From: a bacterium
GTDB taxonomy: Bacteria > Patescibacteriota > Doudnabacteria > UBA920
Reading direction: 5' to 3'
DNA: 35,667 nucleotides
Assembly: GCA_021791515.1 (NCBI GenBank)
Contig: JAJYWK010000056.1
Coordinates: 1-35,667, forward strand
Every line of letters begins with the position of its first letter. Position 1 is the stretch's first letter. Shown here in pieces: positions 28,075 to 34,955 of this stretch. The translations under genes and the position numbers were made by a program. The notes beneath the pieces are model-generated. The model did no database searches. It was not told the DNA's origin and worked only from the letters and a program-made list of their open reading frames with translations.

Positions 28075-28102
28075 TCTGCCGCTCTTGTGGCTGCGGCATA
28101 AC

Positions 28103-28660
28103 CTACTCCACCGTGATGCGGAGGACGATGTTGTCCGCGGCATGCGTATGCCGGTAAGACACATTTCCCTCCACTTCCCAGCGGTTGCCCCCTAAGGGCT
28201 TTGCGACACTCTTGTAACCGGCTATGAGCTGAGGCTCGCCGGCTATGAGCAGGCCGCCGGGTGTCCGCCACTCGGCCTTCAGGACCTTTTTGGGCCCTTC
28301 CGACCAAACGGGGAACTGGAAGTTGTCCAGGCAGGACGCGGGTAGCGGGGAATCGGTGACTCCCGGGCCAACAACCTGCAATTCCGACTGACACGCCCCG
28401 TTGCCGGGGTCTTTGGCCTGCGCGGTACGCACGTGGAGCATGCCAAGCTCGTTGGCGTAGCCCCTGTTGAACCGCGCATCGTCCAACTGTCCGGCGCGCC
28501 GGGCCTTCTCCAAGACCAGAATATTCTTGTTGAACTGGGTCTTGGCAAAACCCTCAAGTCGGTTCTCCGCCGCCTCTTGGGCGGGGAGATACTTCGCCGC
28601 GCCCCAGAACAGGACGATGACGATGACGAGCCCGAGGAGGACAAACTTAGTGGTGGTCAT
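28103..28660 (-). CDS. GC-rich orphan: membrane-anchored protein, 185 aa
   Basis: I do not recognise this protein. Residues 5-22 (KFVLLGLVIVIVLFWGAAKY) are a single anchor; the rest is outside the membrane, with a helical RLEGFAKTQFNKNILVLEKA segment followed by a beta-rich part and two cysteines (NGACQSE, PASCLDN). ATG 28660 is chosen since AAGGAGG lies 6-7 nt before it; the longer frame to 28756 lacks this. It overlaps the preceding gene by 14 nt. Last in a four-gene unit. Codons favour G/C at third positions, unlike the 0-27.7 kb genes. Confidence 0.75.
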   Translation of the reverse strand: MTTTKFVLLGLVIVIVLFWGAAKYLPAQEAAENRLEGFAKTQFNKNILVLEKARRAGQLDDARFNRGYANELGMLHVRTAQAKDPGNGACQSELQVVGPGVTDSPLPASCLDNFQFPVWSEGPKKVLKAEWRTPGGLLIAGEPQLIAGYKSVAKPLGGNRWEVEGNVSYRHTHAADNIVLRITVE

Positions 28661-29339
28661 TGTGCCCTCCTTGGGCCGGAGCCGCCGGAGCAGGAGTCGA
28701 GCCCGGCATCCGGAACTTCTGAAGAAGCCCCATGAGCCAGCTGATCCCAGCAACACACAGAATGATGTAGAGCCAACTTTCCGGGTCCATCAAATCGGGC
28801 AGGGGAAACGCGGGCATACCGCTGGTGGAGAACCACGCCTGGTAGACCAGAATCCCCACGGCCAGCGCGATGCCAGCCCGGGGAACTTTGGCCCACAGAT
28901 TCCAATCAATGTCTATCCCGCCAAGTATCCTGTACAGGAAGTACCCGGCGGTCGTCAGCAACAGGAACCCGGTGACCCCGAAGTTGACGTACAGCGGCAA
29001 AACGCAAGCGAAGACGTTGATGAATGTCTCTACTGCGACAAAGCCGATGACAACCCGGGAGAGGGCACGAAAGAACCCGATATTAGAGCCAACGTAGGCG
29101 CCGAATACCAGGCCAATCGGCCAGCCGCCGAAGATCCATCCAGCCAGAATCGCCACACCCGGCCAAGCAATTGCGAAATACGCATTGGCCGGATGGAGGA
29201 CCTGCTGGACGTAGCAGGAAATCGCGACCTGGCCGAAGACCATGATCACGAAATGCAAAATGAACAGCGTGATGATGGCCCGGAGTTCCGCCGCGCGGCG
29301 CCCGGCCATCACAGTCAGACCTTGCATGAAATTGAACAT
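28647..29339 (-). CDS. GC-rich orphan: polytopic membrane protein, 230 aa
   Basis: Five to six membrane helices are evident: ITLFILHFVIMVFGQVAISC, YFAIAWPGVAILAGWIFGGW, VVIGFVAVETFINVFACVLP, GVTGFLLLTTAGYFLYRILG, AGIALAVGILVYQAWF and LYIILCVAGISWLMGLL. It ends in an Ala/Pro-rich tail with GGHNDHH, a possible metal-binding or disordered end. No family is recognised. ATG 29339 has AAGGAAA upstream. It lies between two other block genes and overlaps the next by 14 nt, so the products may form a membrane complex. Confidence 0.78.
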   Translation of the reverse strand: MFNFMQGLTVMAGRRAAELRAIITLFILHFVIMVFGQVAISCYVQQVLHPANAYFAIAWPGVAILAGWIFGGWPIGLVFGAYVGSNIGFFRALSRVVIGFVAVETFINVFACVLPLYVNFGVTGFLLLTTAGYFLYRILGGIDIDWNLWAKVPRAGIALAVGILVYQAWFSTSGMPAFPLPDLMDPESWLYIILCVAGISWLMGLLQKFRMPGSTPAPAAPAQGGHNDHH

Positions 29340-29359
29340 TTCCGTTTCCTTTCCTTGTT

Positions 29360-30052
29360 CTATCGGTGGAAGTCTACGAACCACTGCCAAATGGTCCGCT
29401 TGGTCGGCGCAGGCCGCCTTGCCGGAGCTGGAAAGCCCCAACGAGCGCCCCTCTGCAACCGCCGACCCCAATTATTCAGTTGCTGGTTGGTATCGCCACT
29501 TGCGGTAACGATGCCGTCCCAAACCTTGCGCGAGATTCCGGGAACGTGGGTCTTGACCCAGTTCCAGACGGCCTCGTCCATCTGGTCGTCGAGCTTGCCG
29601 ACGGCCTTCAGCCGAGCGTTGCGCTCGGCATCGGTCTTAAGCTTCGCATACACCGCGATGACTTCCAGGCGCTTTTGAGGCGTCTCCTGGAGCGTCAGCG
29701 AGTTGCGAAATTTGGACCGCCGGCGCTGGTTTTTTGCCAGCCATTCGCCCAGGCTTTTGACCTGAGCTTTGGTGCACAGCCCGGCCCGAACAACGGCATC
29801 GAGGTCTTCGTCAAACATCTGCTCGTCGTAAAGACCCAAGCCCATCATGTGACGAACGAGGAGCTTGCGCGCCTCGTCGTGCTTGCCTTCAGAAACGAGC
29901 TGTCTCGCTTCCGCGACAACAGCCTTATCTTCGGCCGTCGCCGCCCTGCCGGTAAACGCCCGCTTAAGCATAGGCAGACCATAGATGAACCCCAGGTCCA
30001 ACCCAGCCTCGCGAGCGATCTCAAACAGGAGCTTCTTGCGTTCCTCGGTCAT
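29360..30052 (-). CDS. GC-rich orphan: soluble helical protein, 230 aa
   Basis: A cytoplasmic, helix-rich, basic protein: TEERKKLLFEIAREAGLDLG at the start, GKHDEARKLLVRHMMGLGLY near 58, and a C-terminal Trp- and Arg-rich end (RAPTKRTIWQWFVDFHR-like). I see no enzyme motif. AAAGGAAAAAG precedes the ATG. It lies 13 bp downstream of the Gly-rich gene and 20 bp before the membrane protein, in one transcript. Confidence 0.72.
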   Translation of the reverse strand: MTEERKKLLFEIAREAGLDLGFIYGLPMLKRAFTGRAATAEDKAVVAEARQLVSEGKHDEARKLLVRHMMGLGLYDEQMFDEDLDAVVRAGLCTKAQVKSLGEWLAKNQRRRSKFRNSLTLQETPQKRLEVIAVYAKLKTDAERNARLKAVGKLDDQMDEAVWNWVKTHVPGISRKVWDGIVTASGDTNQQLNNWGRRLQRGARWGFPAPARRPAPTKRTIWQWFVDFHR

Positions 30053-30065
30053 ACTCTTTTTCCTT

Positions 30066-30824
30066 TCAGTATTCGAACTCCAACGTCAGGGAAACCTCCT
30101 CGCCGGATTCCGGATGCAACACCGTCACGGTGCGCTCCATCCCGGCAAATTGGACTTCCAATAGCGCCAGCCCGTTGGCCGGCGTTTTGTAGGTAACGAC
30201 CTTCTTGCCCCGCGCTACCACCTTGCCGGTTTCCGTGTTGATAACGGTCACCGGCTCGCTGGCGCGAAGAATCAGGTCAGCGGCTTCCGCTTTGCCGTCC
30301 TTATTCAGGGTACGGATGGTCGGAAGCGTGAACTTGTTGGCGCGGGACTTCAAGGAGCCTTCGGGAAGTTGGCAAACAAGCCTTCTCCCTTTCTTGGCCG
30401 CCTTGGGTCCTTCCGTGGTCTCAAAAGCCGGCAGTTGAACCGCCTGCTCATAGACCCCCTCTCCTGGCACGGTGTTACGGTAATAGACCACCAGCACTTG
30501 GGTGAAGTGCTTGTAGTCCTCCGCGGCAAAGTCAAAGGCGATGCTTTGAACTTCGCCGTCAGCATCGGTGGCCAAGACGTACCTGTTGGCGGAGCTGGTC
30601 ACATCCATGATCCAGGGACCATGGGCGTTGTCTGCGGTCCCCAGACGAAACATGAGTCTTTCGCCGAGGAGTGCAAACCTGCCTTTGCGGAGAATCACAT
30701 TGATTTTGCAATCGTTGCGCTTTCCGCTGATTCCCGCCGTGATGGTGATCTTGTTGTTGTCGCCACCGCCTCCGCCTCCGCGGTTTTGGTTCCCACCGCC
30801 ACCGCGATTACGGTTGTTCGCCAT
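30066..30824 (-). CDS. GC-rich orphan: Gly-rich N-terminus plus beta domains, 252 aa
   Basis: The first ~25 residues are an Asn/Arg/Gly-rich tail (NNRNRGGGGNQNRGGGGGG), a likely flexible or RNA-binding segment. Two beta-sandwich-like parts follow; the last (VTVINTETGKVVARGKKVVT... TVTVLHPESGEEVSLTLEFE) looks Ig-like. No signal peptide is seen, so it is presumably cytoplasmic. AAGGAGA is placed well before the ATG. It is first in a four-gene unit and follows a 425-nt structured leader. Confidence 0.75.
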   Translation of the reverse strand: MANNRNRGGGGNQNRGGGGGGDNNKITITAGISGKRNDCKINVILRKGRFALLGERLMFRLGTADNAHGPWIMDVTSSANRYVLATDADGEVQSIAFDFAAEDYKHFTQVLVVYYRNTVPGEGVYEQAVQLPAFETTEGPKAAKKGRRLVCQLPEGSLKSRANKFTLPTIRTLNKDGKAEAADLILRASEPVTVINTETGKVVARGKKVVTYKTPANGLALLEVQFAGMERTVTVLHPESGEEVSLTLEFEY

Positions 30825-31250
30825 AGACTTTTCTCCTTTCCATGGCTGTTCGAACTATTAACACACGCAAACGAAAATTGCTTTTCGTTCGCGAAAATAA
30901 ATTACGCTTGACTTATTCCTCCTTCTGCTCTGTCAAAGAGCAAAATCTTAAGTTCCGCCAAAGGCGGGACCGCAGTCACTCTTGCGAGTGGCAAAACCTC
31001 GTAAATCCAGCACCAATTTGTAGAGTGGTGTTATACAAATTCGTGCCTGTCCAAACAATCTATCTAAACACCAAATTGGTGCTTGGATAAATTGATGGTG
31101 TGATAATAAAATCCCCGCCATAGGTGGCGGGGAAATAATTATCGCACTTTACAAGGTTTTGCCCACCACAAGCAAAACCGTTCAGGTTGCAGTCCAGCTC
31201 TTTCTTTAGAAAGGGCTGGGCAAATAACCAATAATAGATTTTTTAGAGAA
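30825..31250 (-). ncRNA. Long structured leader of the GC-rich four-gene operon
   Basis: About 425 nt of leader hold a multibranched structure. GTGGCAAAACCTCGTAAA (30988-31005) pairs with TTTACAAGGTTTTGCCCAC (31148-31166); within it AGCACCAATTTG/CAAATTGGTGCT (31009-31083) and GTGTGATAAT/ATTATCGCAC (31098-31147), which caps TCCCCGCC/GGCGGGGA. GGTTTTGC at 31155-31162 can instead pair with GCAAAACC at 31172-31179, so two folds exclude each other. Further hairpins are CCAGCTCTTTCT/AGAAAGGGCTGG (31194-31219) and CGCAAACGAAAA/TTTTCGTTCGCG (30866-30893) near the gene. Looks like a regulatory leader; ligand unknown. Confidence 0.6.
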
Positions 31251-31256
31251 CCTAAA

Positions 31257-31285
31257 ATTATAATAGAAAAGTACCAAAAAGTCAA
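31257..31285 (-). promoter_or_regulatory. Near-consensus promoter of the four-gene GC-rich operon
   Basis: Minus strand TTGACT (31280-31285), 17-bp spacer, TATAAT (31257-31262). It is among the best promoters in the window and lies about 430 bp from the first start codon. Confidence 0.82.
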
Positions 31286-31342
31286 GGCTTTTTGCTCAAA
31301 TTTACCTATTTCAAAGCAAATAAATAATTTTTCCTTTTATTT

Positions 31343-31385
31343 AAAACAAAAAACAAGCGCACCCCCCTCCTAAAGGATGCGCTTG
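31343..31385 (-). terminator. Intrinsic terminator of the 305-aa gene
   Basis: Minus strand CAAGCGCA...TGCGCTTG (31354-31361 with 31378-31385), inner TCC/GGA pairing, then TTTTTTGTTTT. A further hairpin, CCCCGC/GCGGGG with a nested CCGCC/GGCGG, precedes it at about 31395-31425. Confidence 0.82.
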
Positions 31386-31449
31386 CTGCTATCACCCCGC
31401 TCCGCCGGTTGGCGGATGGCGGGGGCTACAAATGTTGTTGTTGATCCCC

Positions 31450-32367
31450 TCACTTGGGGATACTGGTGATGATTTTGGGCTTTTTGGCCAAACGTTTGGC
31501 CATCCAGCCGCACGGCACCGGCCATCCTTCAATGGCCGACACCACGCAAGCCACGCCAACTGCCCCGACAGCGATGCCGATGTAGAGCTTTTTGTGGCTC
31601 TTCTTCGGCTTCGGCGCTATCACCGGTTCGGGGAGTGGTGACGCCGGAGCCGTGATGGCCGGAGGCAGAGTGGCCGCAATGCGGACGAGGCAACGAATAA
31701 TGTGCCCGTCCTCATCCACACCCTCTACCCAAAGCTTATACAGCCCCGCCCTGGCAAAGTCGCCGCGGTCCAGGTGGACCGTATTGCCCTCGCCGCGAAC
31801 CTCGCCCGCGTCGTCCTTCCACAGCACGTTCGAGACGTGGCCGCGGAATGATGCCGTAAGCGACAATGACAGGTCGCTGGTGAGTACGACGTTCATCACA
31901 TCGTTCTCCCATACCACCGGTCCCTGCCACTCCACATCCCCGCACGTCGGGCAAACGTGGACTTTCTTTTCAACCGGCGGTGGTGGTGCGGGTGTAGGTT
32001 CCGGAGTTGGCTCCGGGACATCCCAGAGTTCCTCCACCGGGTTACCACACCGGGGATCGCCAATCTTGTCGCCCTGGCGAAAATACCCGATGCCAGCTGG
32101 CCAGCGAACGATGCGCCAACCGACGACCGTGAATTCCTTGGCGCAGCGCGCCTTGGAATCCTGGACGTGCTCGGCCTTGCCGAGAGAAACCATCTCTTTC
32201 CACCAGCCCAACTTCTCGTGATATTGGGGCTGATAGATCATAAAGGTTCCCTCCGGAGCCGACGTACAGGCCCGCGGGGTTTCAAAAAACATCGGTTTGC
32301 CAGCATCTTGCCCGAAGGCAAGAATGCCGACTGAAAGCAACAGGAGAAACGCAAATGCCGTACGCAT
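31450..32367 (-). CDS. GC-rich orphan: secreted protein with Pro-rich hinge and C-terminal anchor, 305 aa
   Basis: A signal peptide (FAFLLLLSVGILAFG, cut before QDAG) starts the protein. A ~100-residue domain follows, with CTSAPEGTFMIYQPQYHEKL and three cysteines; then a Pro/Glu hinge (PEPTPEPTPAPPPP); then a CPTCGD pair and a beta-sandwich of PKD/Ig type (LTASFRGHVSNVLWKDDAG, GLYKLWVEGVDEDGHII); then a Lys-rich segment and a helix (LYIGIAVGAVGVACVVSAI). I recognise no family. GGGAGG lies before the ATG. Monocistronic, with its own promoter and terminator. Confidence 0.75.
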   Translation of the reverse strand: MRTAFAFLLLLSVGILAFGQDAGKPMFFETPRACTSAPEGTFMIYQPQYHEKLGWWKEMVSLGKAEHVQDSKARCAKEFTVVGWRIVRWPAGIGYFRQGDKIGDPRCGNPVEELWDVPEPTPEPTPAPPPPVEKKVHVCPTCGDVEWQGPVVWENDVMNVVLTSDLSLSLTASFRGHVSNVLWKDDAGEVRGEGNTVHLDRGDFARAGLYKLWVEGVDEDGHIIRCLVRIAATLPPAITAPASPLPEPVIAPKPKKSHKKLYIGIAVGAVGVACVVSAIEGWPVPCGWMAKRLAKKPKIITSIPK

Positions 32368-32610
32368 TGCTTGCCTCCCTTTCTTCCATCCGGGCTGAAG
32401 TTTGCCTTTCGGCAGCCGGACGAACGAAGAGAAATATCTAAACTTTAGATATCCCTTTCCGTTCGTCCGGGCTGCATACCCAGCCTGCAGTTATCCGCGT
32501 CCATTCAGCGTAGCTATCCGCGTATCATCCGCGTCTTACAACAACAACTTCCTCCTAAAAAATTATTAACTTAAAATTGCAAAACTCTTTTGAGCTTTAC
32601 GCCCAAAAGA
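32368..32610 (-). other. Structured leader of the 305-aa gene
   Basis: GCAGCCGGACGAACG (32412-32426) pairs with CGTTCGTCCGGGCTGC (32460-32475) with one bulge, capped by ATATCTAAA/TTTAGATAT (32434-32452). Upstream in the RNA are ACGCGGAT words. About 240 nt separate promoter and gene. Confidence 0.55.
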
Positions 32611-32616
32611 CTTATT

Positions 32617-32645
32617 ACTGTAGCATAAAAATCCCTATTTGTAAA
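32617..32645 (-). promoter_or_regulatory. Candidate promoter of the 305-aa gene
   Basis: Minus strand TTTACA (32640-32645), 17-bp spacer, TACAGT (32617-32622). Weaker than the other two block promoters. Confidence 0.45.
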
Positions 32646-32649
32646 GAGT

Positions 32650-32996
32650 TTGACGGCTGAAACCCCCTCTCCAATTCATGGAGAAAGATTGAGGGAGAAG
32701 TTAAAAGTATCGGGATTAAAAAATATAGGCCTTTTATCTCCATGCAGGTATCACACTTTAGCGTGGCCGCGTTAAAGTCTGATATCAAAATCTCTTAAGG
32801 ACTTTTTCGCAATTCTGTTGTGCTGTCATCCCGACCGACCCCGACTTTAGTCGGGAGAGCGGAGGGATCCCTTAACGTCAAATTGATCACGAACTCTACG
32901 GGATTTTTCGGCTCGTCTGACCTGTCTGTGGCAGACAGGCTCGCTCGGAATGACACCGGGACTATTGATTTGGTTTTTTGCGAAAAAAGAAGACAC
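32650..32996. repeat. Gene-free stretch made of dispersed palindromes
   Basis: No coding region is supported. It holds CTCTCCAATTCATGGAGA, a foldback of TATCACACTTTAGCGTGG, ACCCCGACTTTAGTCGGGAG, a GTCATCCCGA...GGGATCC word and CCTGTCTGTGGCAGACAGG. These are the same classes of repeat as at 27676-27860. Confidence 0.5.
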
Positions 32997-33159
32997 AGGA
33001 CTTACGCACTGAGTCAAGTGCAAGGCATTTTGCGAGGATTTTATGAGGCGTAGCCAAGCTACGGCGAGTAAAACCACAGCAAAATAACGAAGCAATTGAC
33101 CAGAGCCGCTTTCAAGGATCCGGCTCCGCCGGTCCTAAAGACGGCGGTGCGTAAGTCCT
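32997..33159. mobile_element. 163-bp MITE-like element
   Basis: Perfect 13-bp terminal inverted repeats AGGACTTACGCAC (32997-33009) and GTGCGTAAGTCCT (33147-33159). The inside is an imperfect palindrome centred on GCGTAGCCAAGCTACGGC. There is no ORF. GGACTTACGCA ends resemble those of several bacterial transposon families, so it is probably a non-autonomous derivative; the parent is not in the window and no clear target duplication was found. Confidence 0.7.
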
Positions 33160-33217
33160 AAGACAAAAGAAAGCAGCAGGAAGGCGGACCCGGGGGGTCA
33201 CGCGCATTCCTGCTGCT
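33160..33217 (-). terminator. Intrinsic terminator of the 558-aa gene
   Basis: Minus strand AGCAGCAGGAA (33207-33217) pairs with TTCCTGCTGCT (33172-33182), 11 bp with a 24-nt GC-rich loop, then TTCTTTTGTCTT. It ends one base from the MITE. Confidence 0.82.
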
Positions 33218-33278
33218 GATTGGCTCCTTCCACATCTACTTGCCGTTGGGCTTTCAATGGGAGGGATGATAACGTTAC

Positions 33279-34955
33279 TTACTGATTACCGGGCTGCATG
33301 GGCGCCCGGCCGCTGGTGGCCGGTGCCGCGGCGACGTGATTCGGGAAGACGGCCTCACAGCCGGCCCCCAGACTGCCGTCCTTCTGGAGCTGCTTTACGC
33401 AACCCCGAATGAACTCCGCCGTGAGGGCGGCCTTGGGGGCCAACTGCTCCAGCTTGGGCTTGCCCAAGCCGAGGAAGCCACTCCGGCCACCGGCGAGGAC
33501 GGACACGTGGCCGAGTTCAGCCACCGTGCCCGCGAGGGCACCGGTGGCGTCCATCGCGGCGTCCGCCTTCATCTCCACCCGCTGGATGCGGGCGGTGAGC
33601 GGGGCGAGATCCGCACTGGTGGCTTGCGGCAGGGACTGAATCCCCGCCTCAATTCCACCGGCGATGGCGGCCTTCAGCCGAGGATCGCCCAGCGTCCGGT
33701 CGGCTGCGTTGAACTCTGCGGCATTGGCGAGCTTCGCCATCACCGCGTTCTCTTCTGCCTGGTTCCGCGCTTTTTTCAGTTGCCCGAAAAGCTCGGTGCC
33801 GGTAATGGCCGGTCCAAACTCTTTGCCGCACCGTGCCTTCGCAGGCTCGGTGCCACAAACGGCGTTAAAGAGAGCCAACCACCGCATATCCTCCCGCGCC
33901 GCGATGCGGGCGGAAAAATCGGTAGTCGGAGCGATGGGAGCCGAGGGGGCAGTGTCTCTGACTTTCAGCGTCTTGCCGGAATCCTCAAAGGATCCGGCAG
34001 CGGTCGCTTGAATCATCAGCTTGTAGTCGCCTTTGGCCGCGGTCGCCGTAGCGTCAAAGGTGAACTCGAGGCATCCCTTGTCGGCCTCGAGCTTGCTGTG
34101 CTTCAGCCCCTCGAACTTGGCGTCATTGGCCGTGTCGAGTCCAGAACCGCACACCTTAACGAGCCCCGACTCGCCGGCCTTCAGAGAAGACGGAGTGATC
34201 GAAGCGACAGTCGGTGTAGCGGCATGGAGCGCAGGGATCATCAAGCAAATTATGAGAACCGGGACAAGAGCCCGGATCCACGAAATGCCGAGCAATCGCC
34301 GCCGCAGGTCGATGATGTAGACAAAAACGACCAGGAAGCTAAACAGCAGTCCGTAGCACAGCCAGCGGAAGTGCTTAACCAGCTGCAAAAGCTGCGCCCG
34401 CGTCAGCTCAATTGTGTTCGGTCGCAGATCACCTTTGATATTCTGGATGGCCAAGTTCACCTTGGAAAGAGTGACGTCTGACCGAACGGTCCGGTCATCT
34501 TTCTGGTAGGTGCCCTGCAACCTGGCCACTTCGTCTCTGATGTCTTCGAAGTCCCTGGCCGTGAACGCCCATGGGGCGACCTTGACCGTAAAGGTCTTAG
34601 TCACCACCTTGTTCTCACTTGTGACCTTCACCGGGATGTTGATAGTGCCGACCTCTGTCGGCTGCCCGATAAAGCTACAGTCGCCGTTGGGTTCCACCTT
34701 ATCTGGGGCGCCCTCACCCAACTCACACTGGACCGGCGCATCTTCGCTCAGGTTTGTTTTGATGGAAAACCCGAACACCCGGCCGACCTGTACGTCGGTC
34801 GGCAAATCAGCGGTCACGACGAATGCGTCGTCGGTCTTTGCGAGCGCCGCGCCCTTTTTCGGAATCCCCGCGAGGGCGGGGATGGCGGACAGGTTGACGA
34901 AAAGAACCAGCGCGAGGCTGATCCTGGAAACGAGAGAGGTCTTGGCGTTGCACAT
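33279..34955 (-). CDS. GC-rich orphan: exported membrane protein with Ig-like and IPT/TIG-like domains, 558 aa
   Basis: A signal peptide (LVLFVNLSAIPALAG) is followed by an Ig-like domain with two Cys (VQCELG, GDCSFIG) at ~40-130, then a helical segment, a membrane helix (LCYGLLFSFLVVFVYIIDL) near 195-215 and a second (ALVPVLIICLMIPALHAA) at ~230-247. Next is an IPT/TIG-like domain, TPTVASITPSSLKAGESGLV to ~335, with paired Cys. The last ~200 residues are Ala-rich helical (IQRVEMKADAAMDATGALAG) and end in a Pro/Gln tail. Such architecture suggests a cell-envelope or surface assembly; no family is recognised. AGGAGG lies 6 nt before the ATG. Own promoter, leader and terminator. Confidence 0.78.
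   Translation of the reverse strand: MCNAKTSLVSRISLALVLFVNLSAIPALAGIPKKGAALAKTDDAFVVTADLPTDVQVGRVFGFSIKTNLSEDAPVQCELGEGAPDKVEPNGDCSFIGQPTEVGTINIPVKVTSENKVVTKTFTVKVAPWAFTARDFEDIRDEVARLQGTYQKDDRTVRSDVTLSKVNLAIQNIKGDLRPNTIELTRAQLLQLVKHFRWLCYGLLFSFLVVFVYIIDLRRRLLGISWIRALVPVLIICLMIPALHAATPTVASITPSSLKAGESGLVKVCGSGLDTANDAKFEGLKHSKLEADKGCLEFTFDATATAAKGDYKLMIQATAAGSFEDSGKTLKVRDTAPSAPIAPTTDFSARIAAREDMRWLALFNAVCGTEPAKARCGKEFGPAITGTELFGQLKKARNQAEENAVMAKLANAAEFNAADRTLGDPRLKAAIAGGIEAGIQSLPQATSADLAPLTARIQRVEMKADAAMDATGALAGTVAELGHVSVLAGGRSGFLGLGKPKLEQLAPKAALTAEFIRGCVKQLQKDGSLGAGCEAVFPNHVAAAPATSGRAPMQPGNQ

Follow-up and report, generated by a model that had tools for sequence, protein, structure and literature searches.

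What kind of RNA lies ahead of the four-gene, GC-rich operon in this Doudnabacteria contig, and can it refold? Within the window (the whole 35,667-nt stretch of contig JAJYWK010000056.1 that was analysed), the first-pass annotation had described a switching leader, in which a local hairpin forms first and a longer helix that shares one of its strands forms later. Read on the minus strand, all the pairing elements were found where they had been placed (Table 1), as was the near-consensus promoter at the 5' end. Promoters of the homologous leaders matched 11 to 12 of 12 consensus positions in seven of eight cases (G014, 9/12), that is, in eight of nine leaders with the window included. The 461-nt leader had a minimum free energy (MFE) of -174 kcal/mol compared with -113.8 +/- 5.8 kcal/mol for 100 dinucleotide shuffles (z -10.35), and a 321-nt core gave z -9.77 against dinucleotide shuffles. 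The fold is far beyond chance. A 12-bp hairpin reported near the ribosome-binding site of the first gene is present but not conserved, as it was not seen in the eight homologous leader segments. Short matches to the GUCCCGCCUUUGGCGGAAC hairpin stretch were scattered through genomes of the genus. No Rfam 15 family reached its gathering score in the window, and the eight homologous loci gave only tRNA; for Rfam 15, the claim that no riboswitch consensus is matched therefore stands. Loose-threshold matches, among them GcvB and RprA, all fell under the gathering scores and were judged to be chance.

Table 1. Elements of the leader RNA and its operon, with positions in the window.
Feature	Position	Strand	Remark
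Leader RNA	31285 to 30825	minus	ahead of four-gene operon 30824-28103
Promoter TTGACT-17-TATAAT	31257..31285	minus	11/12 consensus positions
5' hairpin GCCCAGCCC..GAGCTGG	31194..31221	minus	from 321-nt core fold; window-specific as far as seen
Local hairpin HP0 (GGUUUUGC..GCAAAACC)	31155..31179	minus	prefix folding and covariation; col14-col26 pair kept 9/9, one double change
Long helix P1, 5' strand CUUGUGGUGGGCAAAACCUUGUAAA	31148..31172	minus	near-invariant
GUGGUG	31164..31169	minus	invariant 9/9
Terminator-like GC hairpin, then U-rich stretch, inside P1	31112..31133	minus	hairpin of this kind in 8/9 homologues
Hairpin with CACCAC (31025-31030) in loop	31017..31039	minus	CACCAC in 9/9 inserts
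Long helix P1, 3' strand UUUACGAGGUUUUGCCACUCGCAAG	30981..31005	minus	alignment of nine homologues
Hairpin GUCCCGCCUUUGGCGGAAC	30952..30970	minus	from 321-nt core fold
boxA-like element UGCUCUUUGACA	30931..30942	minus	matrix from 8 rRNA leaders, p 0.001
AGGAGGA, SD-like	30917..30923	minus	then GUCAAG 30912-30907
12-bp hairpin	30866..30893	minus	not conserved; unseen in eight homologous segments
SD AAAGGAG of first gene	30833..30839	minus	
Gene 1, 252 aa	30066..30824	minus	R/G/N-rich start; beta-rich low-confidence model
Gene 2, 230 aa	29360..30052	minus	family orphan
Gene 3, 230 aa	28647..29339	minus	hydrophobic (membrane-like) protein
Gene 4, 185 aa	28103..28660	minus	one N-terminal hydrophobic segment

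Eight genomes of the genus were examined with blastn, and matches to parts of the leader (E <0.001) were obtained in five genomes besides the window. R1, a covariance model trained on the six sequences from the genus, detected this RNA in another three genera, again at operon heads: G014 (8.6e-19), G008 (2.0e-17), and G009 (3.2e-9), none of which was used in building R1, among 22 genomes. With a model from all nine sequences (R2), the leader was present in 9 of 49 genomes of the class Doudnabacteria, representing 4 of 32 genera and one family only, and an order-level search with R1 returned the same nine genomes. In a sample of the phylum, 8 of 379 Patescibacteria genomes matched, all already known and all from one family. 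Leader-bearing genomes (G000, G001, G002, G003, G005, G006, G008, G009, and G014) were counted with one copy each; opposite-strand echoes and weak R1 or R2 matches (G004, G007, G013, G017-G020, loci L018-L020, and second places in some genomes) were not counted. G004 and G007, which belong to the same genus as the window, had no leader at E 1e-4 with R2. An exact-pattern scan of GTDB contigs yielded 25 stretches, seven of them with the RNA and all already known (five named Candidatus Doudnabacteria, the others 'bacterium' and 'Patescibacteria group bacterium'). Three viral contigs with the exact pattern carried no leader RNA, and three short, weak matches in a phage collection were not meaningful. 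The leader occupied a constant position, at the operon head in 9/9 genomes. A tRNA was located upstream of it in four of eight homologous loci (L002, L005, L016, and L017), in whose genomes an ORF that we take to be ftsH-like also lies upstream. That this is a real, evolutionarily conserved folded leader RNA is near certain.

Conservation of the fold was scored on a trimmed alignment (A6) of the nine sequences, from which a variable insert of 9 to 155 nt was omitted apart from CACCAC; these homologues are related by descent and are not nine independent events. Columns 22-23 and 62-63 of the long helix, P1, form an internal loop and were treated as unpaired. P1 plus its extension comprised 23 pairs, with 96.1% of 207 cells paired compared with at most 55.6% for slid-structure controls. 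Ten pairs were invariant and five had changed on both sides (eight cells); the percentage paired and the covariation score were reached by 0/500 shuffles, the number of doubly changed pairs by 1/500. Compensatory changes in homologous leaders, on which the first-pass annotation had staked its proposal, are thus present, and P1 would clearly seem to be under selection. The pairing with the partner strand at 31005-30981 held, but at 25 nt per strand the helix is longer than had been described, and the MFE structure places three stems inside it, not two, one being the terminator-like hairpin.

The P1 cells comprised 168 Watson-Crick, 31 G·U, 3 A·C, and 5 other combinations, and the excess of G·U over A·C identifies the minus strand as the one transcribed. 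This strand-specific wobble bias (31 vs 3) makes it scarcely credible that the conserved unit is a DNA-level inverted repeat, such as an operator or mobile-element end, rather than an RNA. Such a repeat would fit the imperfect inverted repeats and the scattering of short CCGCC-type hairpin matches across these genomes, but not an element found in a single copy per genome at the operon head, behind a promoter. The two strands of P1 also evolve differently: the 5' strand is almost fixed and the 3' strand drifts inside wobble-pairing limits. RNase III typically cuts in long helices, and P1, being long and very stable, could play a passive part, protecting the mRNA as a stable 5' structure or maturing it as a processing site for this enzyme, with no switching involved. 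A role of that kind would, however, require neither a near-invariant 5' strand opposite a 3' strand that drifts via wobble pairs nor the CACCAC retained in 9/9 inserts, and we consider it improbable. Coding constraint is another conceivable source of the fixed strand, in the form of a leader-peptide attenuator with a small ORF across it (e.g., UUG-CUU-GUG-GUG-GGC-AAA-ACC-NNG-UAA). A stop codon does occur at the same place in 9/9 sequences, but as a consequence of the P1 sequence, and third codon positions are fixed as much as the others. No SD was seen, and G005 is without a start codon in that frame, so no conserved, translated small ORF was found and the attenuator was rejected as very improbable.

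The strands of the local hairpin, HP0, were confirmed at 31179-31172 and 31162-31155. Across the nine homologues, 90.3% of 72 HP0 cells were paired compared with at most 61.1% when the structure was slid, and one pair had changed on both sides, from G-C to C-G in G009. Its covariation was equalled by 51/500 shuffles because the 3' strand hardly varies. When the upstream 14 or 24 bases alone were shuffled, Fisher p values for the GGGCAAAA pairing were 0.001 and 2e-5, which are optimistic given that the sequences are related. Comparison of the homologues hence lends HP0 moderate support, less strong than that for P1. The most telling point for competing pairings is the partner preference of column 26, which could pair with column 14 (HP0) in 9/9 sequences and with column 59 (P1) in 4/9. 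Given this preference and the covariation of P1, mutually exclusive folding of the leader is credible, and we regard it as plausible. A further candidate, a local 3'-side hairpin (CACUC-GCAA-GAGUG), was unsupported in the nine sequences, with 42.2% of cells paired and 427/500 shuffles equal.

The proposed order of folding, local hairpin first and long helix later, agreed with prefix folding for the window and most homologues. In-register HP0 had a prefix probability of 1.00 in the window, 0.67 in G001, 0.96 in G002, 0.98 in G003, 0.48 in G006, 0.85 in G008, and 0.88 in G014, but 0.00 in both G005 and G009, where the same stretch makes other local hairpins in the shortest-prefix MFE and the HP0 register differs. 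P1 reached a probability of at least 0.96 in 9/9 completed prefixes. The description of a switching leader is consequently plausible; the compensatory changes in P1 and the folding order agree with it, HP0 less strongly, being out of register in two homologues.

Two elements had escaped the first-pass annotation, the first of which is a further potential partner of the near-invariant strand. CACCAC, complementary to the invariant GUGGUG, was the sole hexamer common to all nine inserts, and CACCA and ACCAC were the only shared 5-mers. It sits 1 or 5 nt ahead of the P1 3' strand or, if farther (17-21 nt), in a hairpin-loop region. Pairing of GUGGUG with CACCAC formed (P >0.9) in five of nine prefixes (G001, G003, G008, G009, and G014), the window not being among them; as both motifs are invariant, covariation cannot test it. 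Closed P1 puts the two motifs at opposite helix ends, and we infer that they pair at an earlier stage or in an alternative state. GGUGGGC is also complementary to tRNA 3' ends (GCCCACCA).

Control of read-through could naturally act on the terminator-like hairpin inside P1, though this hairpin is not universal, being missing in G009. An antiterminator pairing of GGUGGG with the CCCGCC of this hairpin was rejected, as G008 has GCCCCC-AAAACC and G009 no hairpin. A near-invariant strand, three competing pairings, and a terminator-like hairpin in 8/9 leaders are what might be expected of a riboswitch or protein-responsive attenuator, in which a ligand or regulator bound at HP0/GUGGUG would select HP0 (or GUGGUG:CACCAC) over P1 and act on the hairpin or the SD. 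Gene 1 products that are R/G/N/Q-rich at their start in 5/9 operons could suit RNA binding. However, the loss of the hairpin in G009 and its different sequence in G008 leave no conserved antiterminator to it, and no recognisable ligand-type gene lies downstream. This alternative, under which boxA would be incidental, also leaves the conservation of boxA unexplained, and we hold it to be rather unlikely.

The boxA-like element, the second of these new observations, emerged from a weight matrix built from boxA sequences in eight rRNA leaders belonging to this family (e.g., AGCACTTTAACA in G000 and AGCACCTTAACA in G003). For each of the nine leaders, the region from P1 to the start codon was scanned and the best 12-mer scored. 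Matches reached p <=0.014 in seven of nine leaders (the window, G001, G002, G003, G005, G009, and G014) and fell short of significance in G006 (p 0.18) and G008 (p 0.17); Fisher combination over all nine gave 2.4e-12. The window element and that of G001 (p 0.001), the latter identical to the rRNA boxA of G003, are examples. GGAGG or GAGGA followed the best 12-mer within ~12 nt in all leaders except G009. Among the seven significant leaders, six had an SD-like purine block after boxA, with G009 carrying boxA without GGAGGA, and the window and G005 have a second SD closer to the start codon. In the rRNA operons themselves, the 16S rRNA match spanned 1759 bases in L131 (G000:C32:13741-15499) and 1635 bases in L132 (G021:C4:8198-9832) compared with ~1465 bases in other full-length matches, and these two genes therefore probably carry insertions.

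GC content is 59.1% in the operon, compared with 41.7% in the leader and 43.0% over the first 27.6 kb of the window. None of the operon proteins matched at curated Pfam or NCBIfam cut-offs or in PHROGs at 0.01, and gene 1 gave a poor structure prediction (mean pLDDT 66.5). More widely, a GC-rich island (mostly 55-62%) coding for orphan proteins, some of them secreted, spans positions 28100-34955; the contig is ~43% GC. The nine leaders are each followed by a short run of poorly conserved genes, and several of the products are hydrophobic with His/Gly-rich ends. A gene-2 profile matched, among 22 genomes, six of the nine leader genomes, which were rows used to build it, together with G013; a gene-1 profile matched only the three genomes from which it was built. 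In G013, the leader of the operon with the gene-2 relative is without the motif. This leader (L071) instead contains two instances of CUACAGCUA or a close variant of it and a single UAGCUGUAG, which might again pair in mutually exclusive ways.

Taken together, we favour a cis-acting, structured, boxA-linked leader specific to Doudnabacteria, in which a refolding upstream domain controls elongation and/or translation of the operon, with a probability of roughly one half. The leader would be transcribed from a sigma-70-type promoter, and its near-invariant strand CUUGUGGUGGGCAAAACCNNGUAAA would first close HP0, may next pair through GUGGUG with CACCAC, and would finally be taken over by P1. Downstream, NusB-S10 (Nus complex) may bind the boxA-like element just ahead of the purine-rich SD-like block and modify elongation and/or ribosome access; refolding of the upstream domain could then set how often polymerase reads through the operon (59% GC against a background of 43%) and how often ribosomes translate it. 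The Nus-factor mechanism is what we infer, and the sequence cannot tell promotion of read-through into a GC-rich operon from held-back translation.

The pattern TCTTTRAMAN{4,16}GGAGGA had 14 matches, spread over 11 of 22 genomes of the family, compared with five for the reversed pattern. Seven of nine such loci outside P1 leaders precede secreted or orphan, often GC-rich genes (L113, L114, L116, L117, L120, L122, and L125; ~locus position 1500), which suggests that the family may have further boxA-type leaders. Within the window, the next GC-rich gene (34955-33279, minus) has TTGACA-17-TATAAT upstream, within 35490-34956. After this promoter, the same minus-strand interval holds a long stem, AAAGAGCAGU..ACUGCUCUUU, with a boxA-like 3' strand and then CGGAGGA; its boxA score was not significant by shuffles (p 0.23). 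The motif AACGUUACU is common to L116, L117, and the window at ~35140 (minus), after GGAGGA and close to more hairpins. Conceivably, the P1 leader is a dedicated, lineage-specific elongation-control RNA, whose domain of HP0, GUGGUG:CACCAC, and P1 acts with boxA to equip RNA polymerase with the Nus machinery and thereby allow transcription of unusually GC-rich CPR orphan operons, variant boxA leaders serving several more of the family's GC-rich operons for secreted proteins. We offer this extension tentatively, as a possibility on the doubtful side.

Gene regulation in Patescibacteria is little explored. Literature searches combining Doudnabacteria or CPR with riboswitch, structured RNA, or noncoding RNA found no paper, and a Patescibacteria-riboswitch search gave one match, which mentions riboswitches as tools only. 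The leader constitutes a new RNA family, though one whose general type is familiar. With clear covariation, a place at operon heads, and a boxA as in the rRNA leaders of the same organisms, it provides a testable entry to the control of GC-rich, fast-evolving operons in reduced bacteria.

EAR, put, and LoaP-dependent leaders are structured operon leaders proposed to modify RNA polymerase. The Doudnabacteria RNA is likewise a structured leader but has no Rfam match and contains a boxA-like element. With Rfam riboswitches and leaders it shares alternative pairings and a terminator-like hairpin, yet no family was matched at gathering score. The lambda N leader has a promoter-proximal Nus site (nutL) and an RNase III hairpin before the N gene. 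Similarly, a promoter-proximal, here putative, Nus site and a long helix stand ahead of a gene in our leaders; unlike in lambda, the helix precedes boxA and no N-like protein is known. Repression of N through nutL is mentioned in the paper on Escherichia coli suhB by Baniulyte et al. (PMC5725501), which describes a boxA 6 nt before the SD that represses translation via the Nus complex, with Rho termination ensuing, and states that a simple steric block is no sufficient explanation. For recruitment of the antitermination complex, boxA is stated to be both necessary and sufficient in a 2023 study of rRNA leaders (PMC10250234). Like the rRNA-leader boxA, the NusB-S10 site, the window element fits the matrix of the family's own rRNA boxA, and the purine-rich SD-like stretch within ~12 nt of the best 12-mer in 8/9 leaders resembles the suhB arrangement (PMC5725501). 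Unlike either, the putative binding site stands before a protein operon without assigned function and is preceded by a conserved domain with competing predicted folds.
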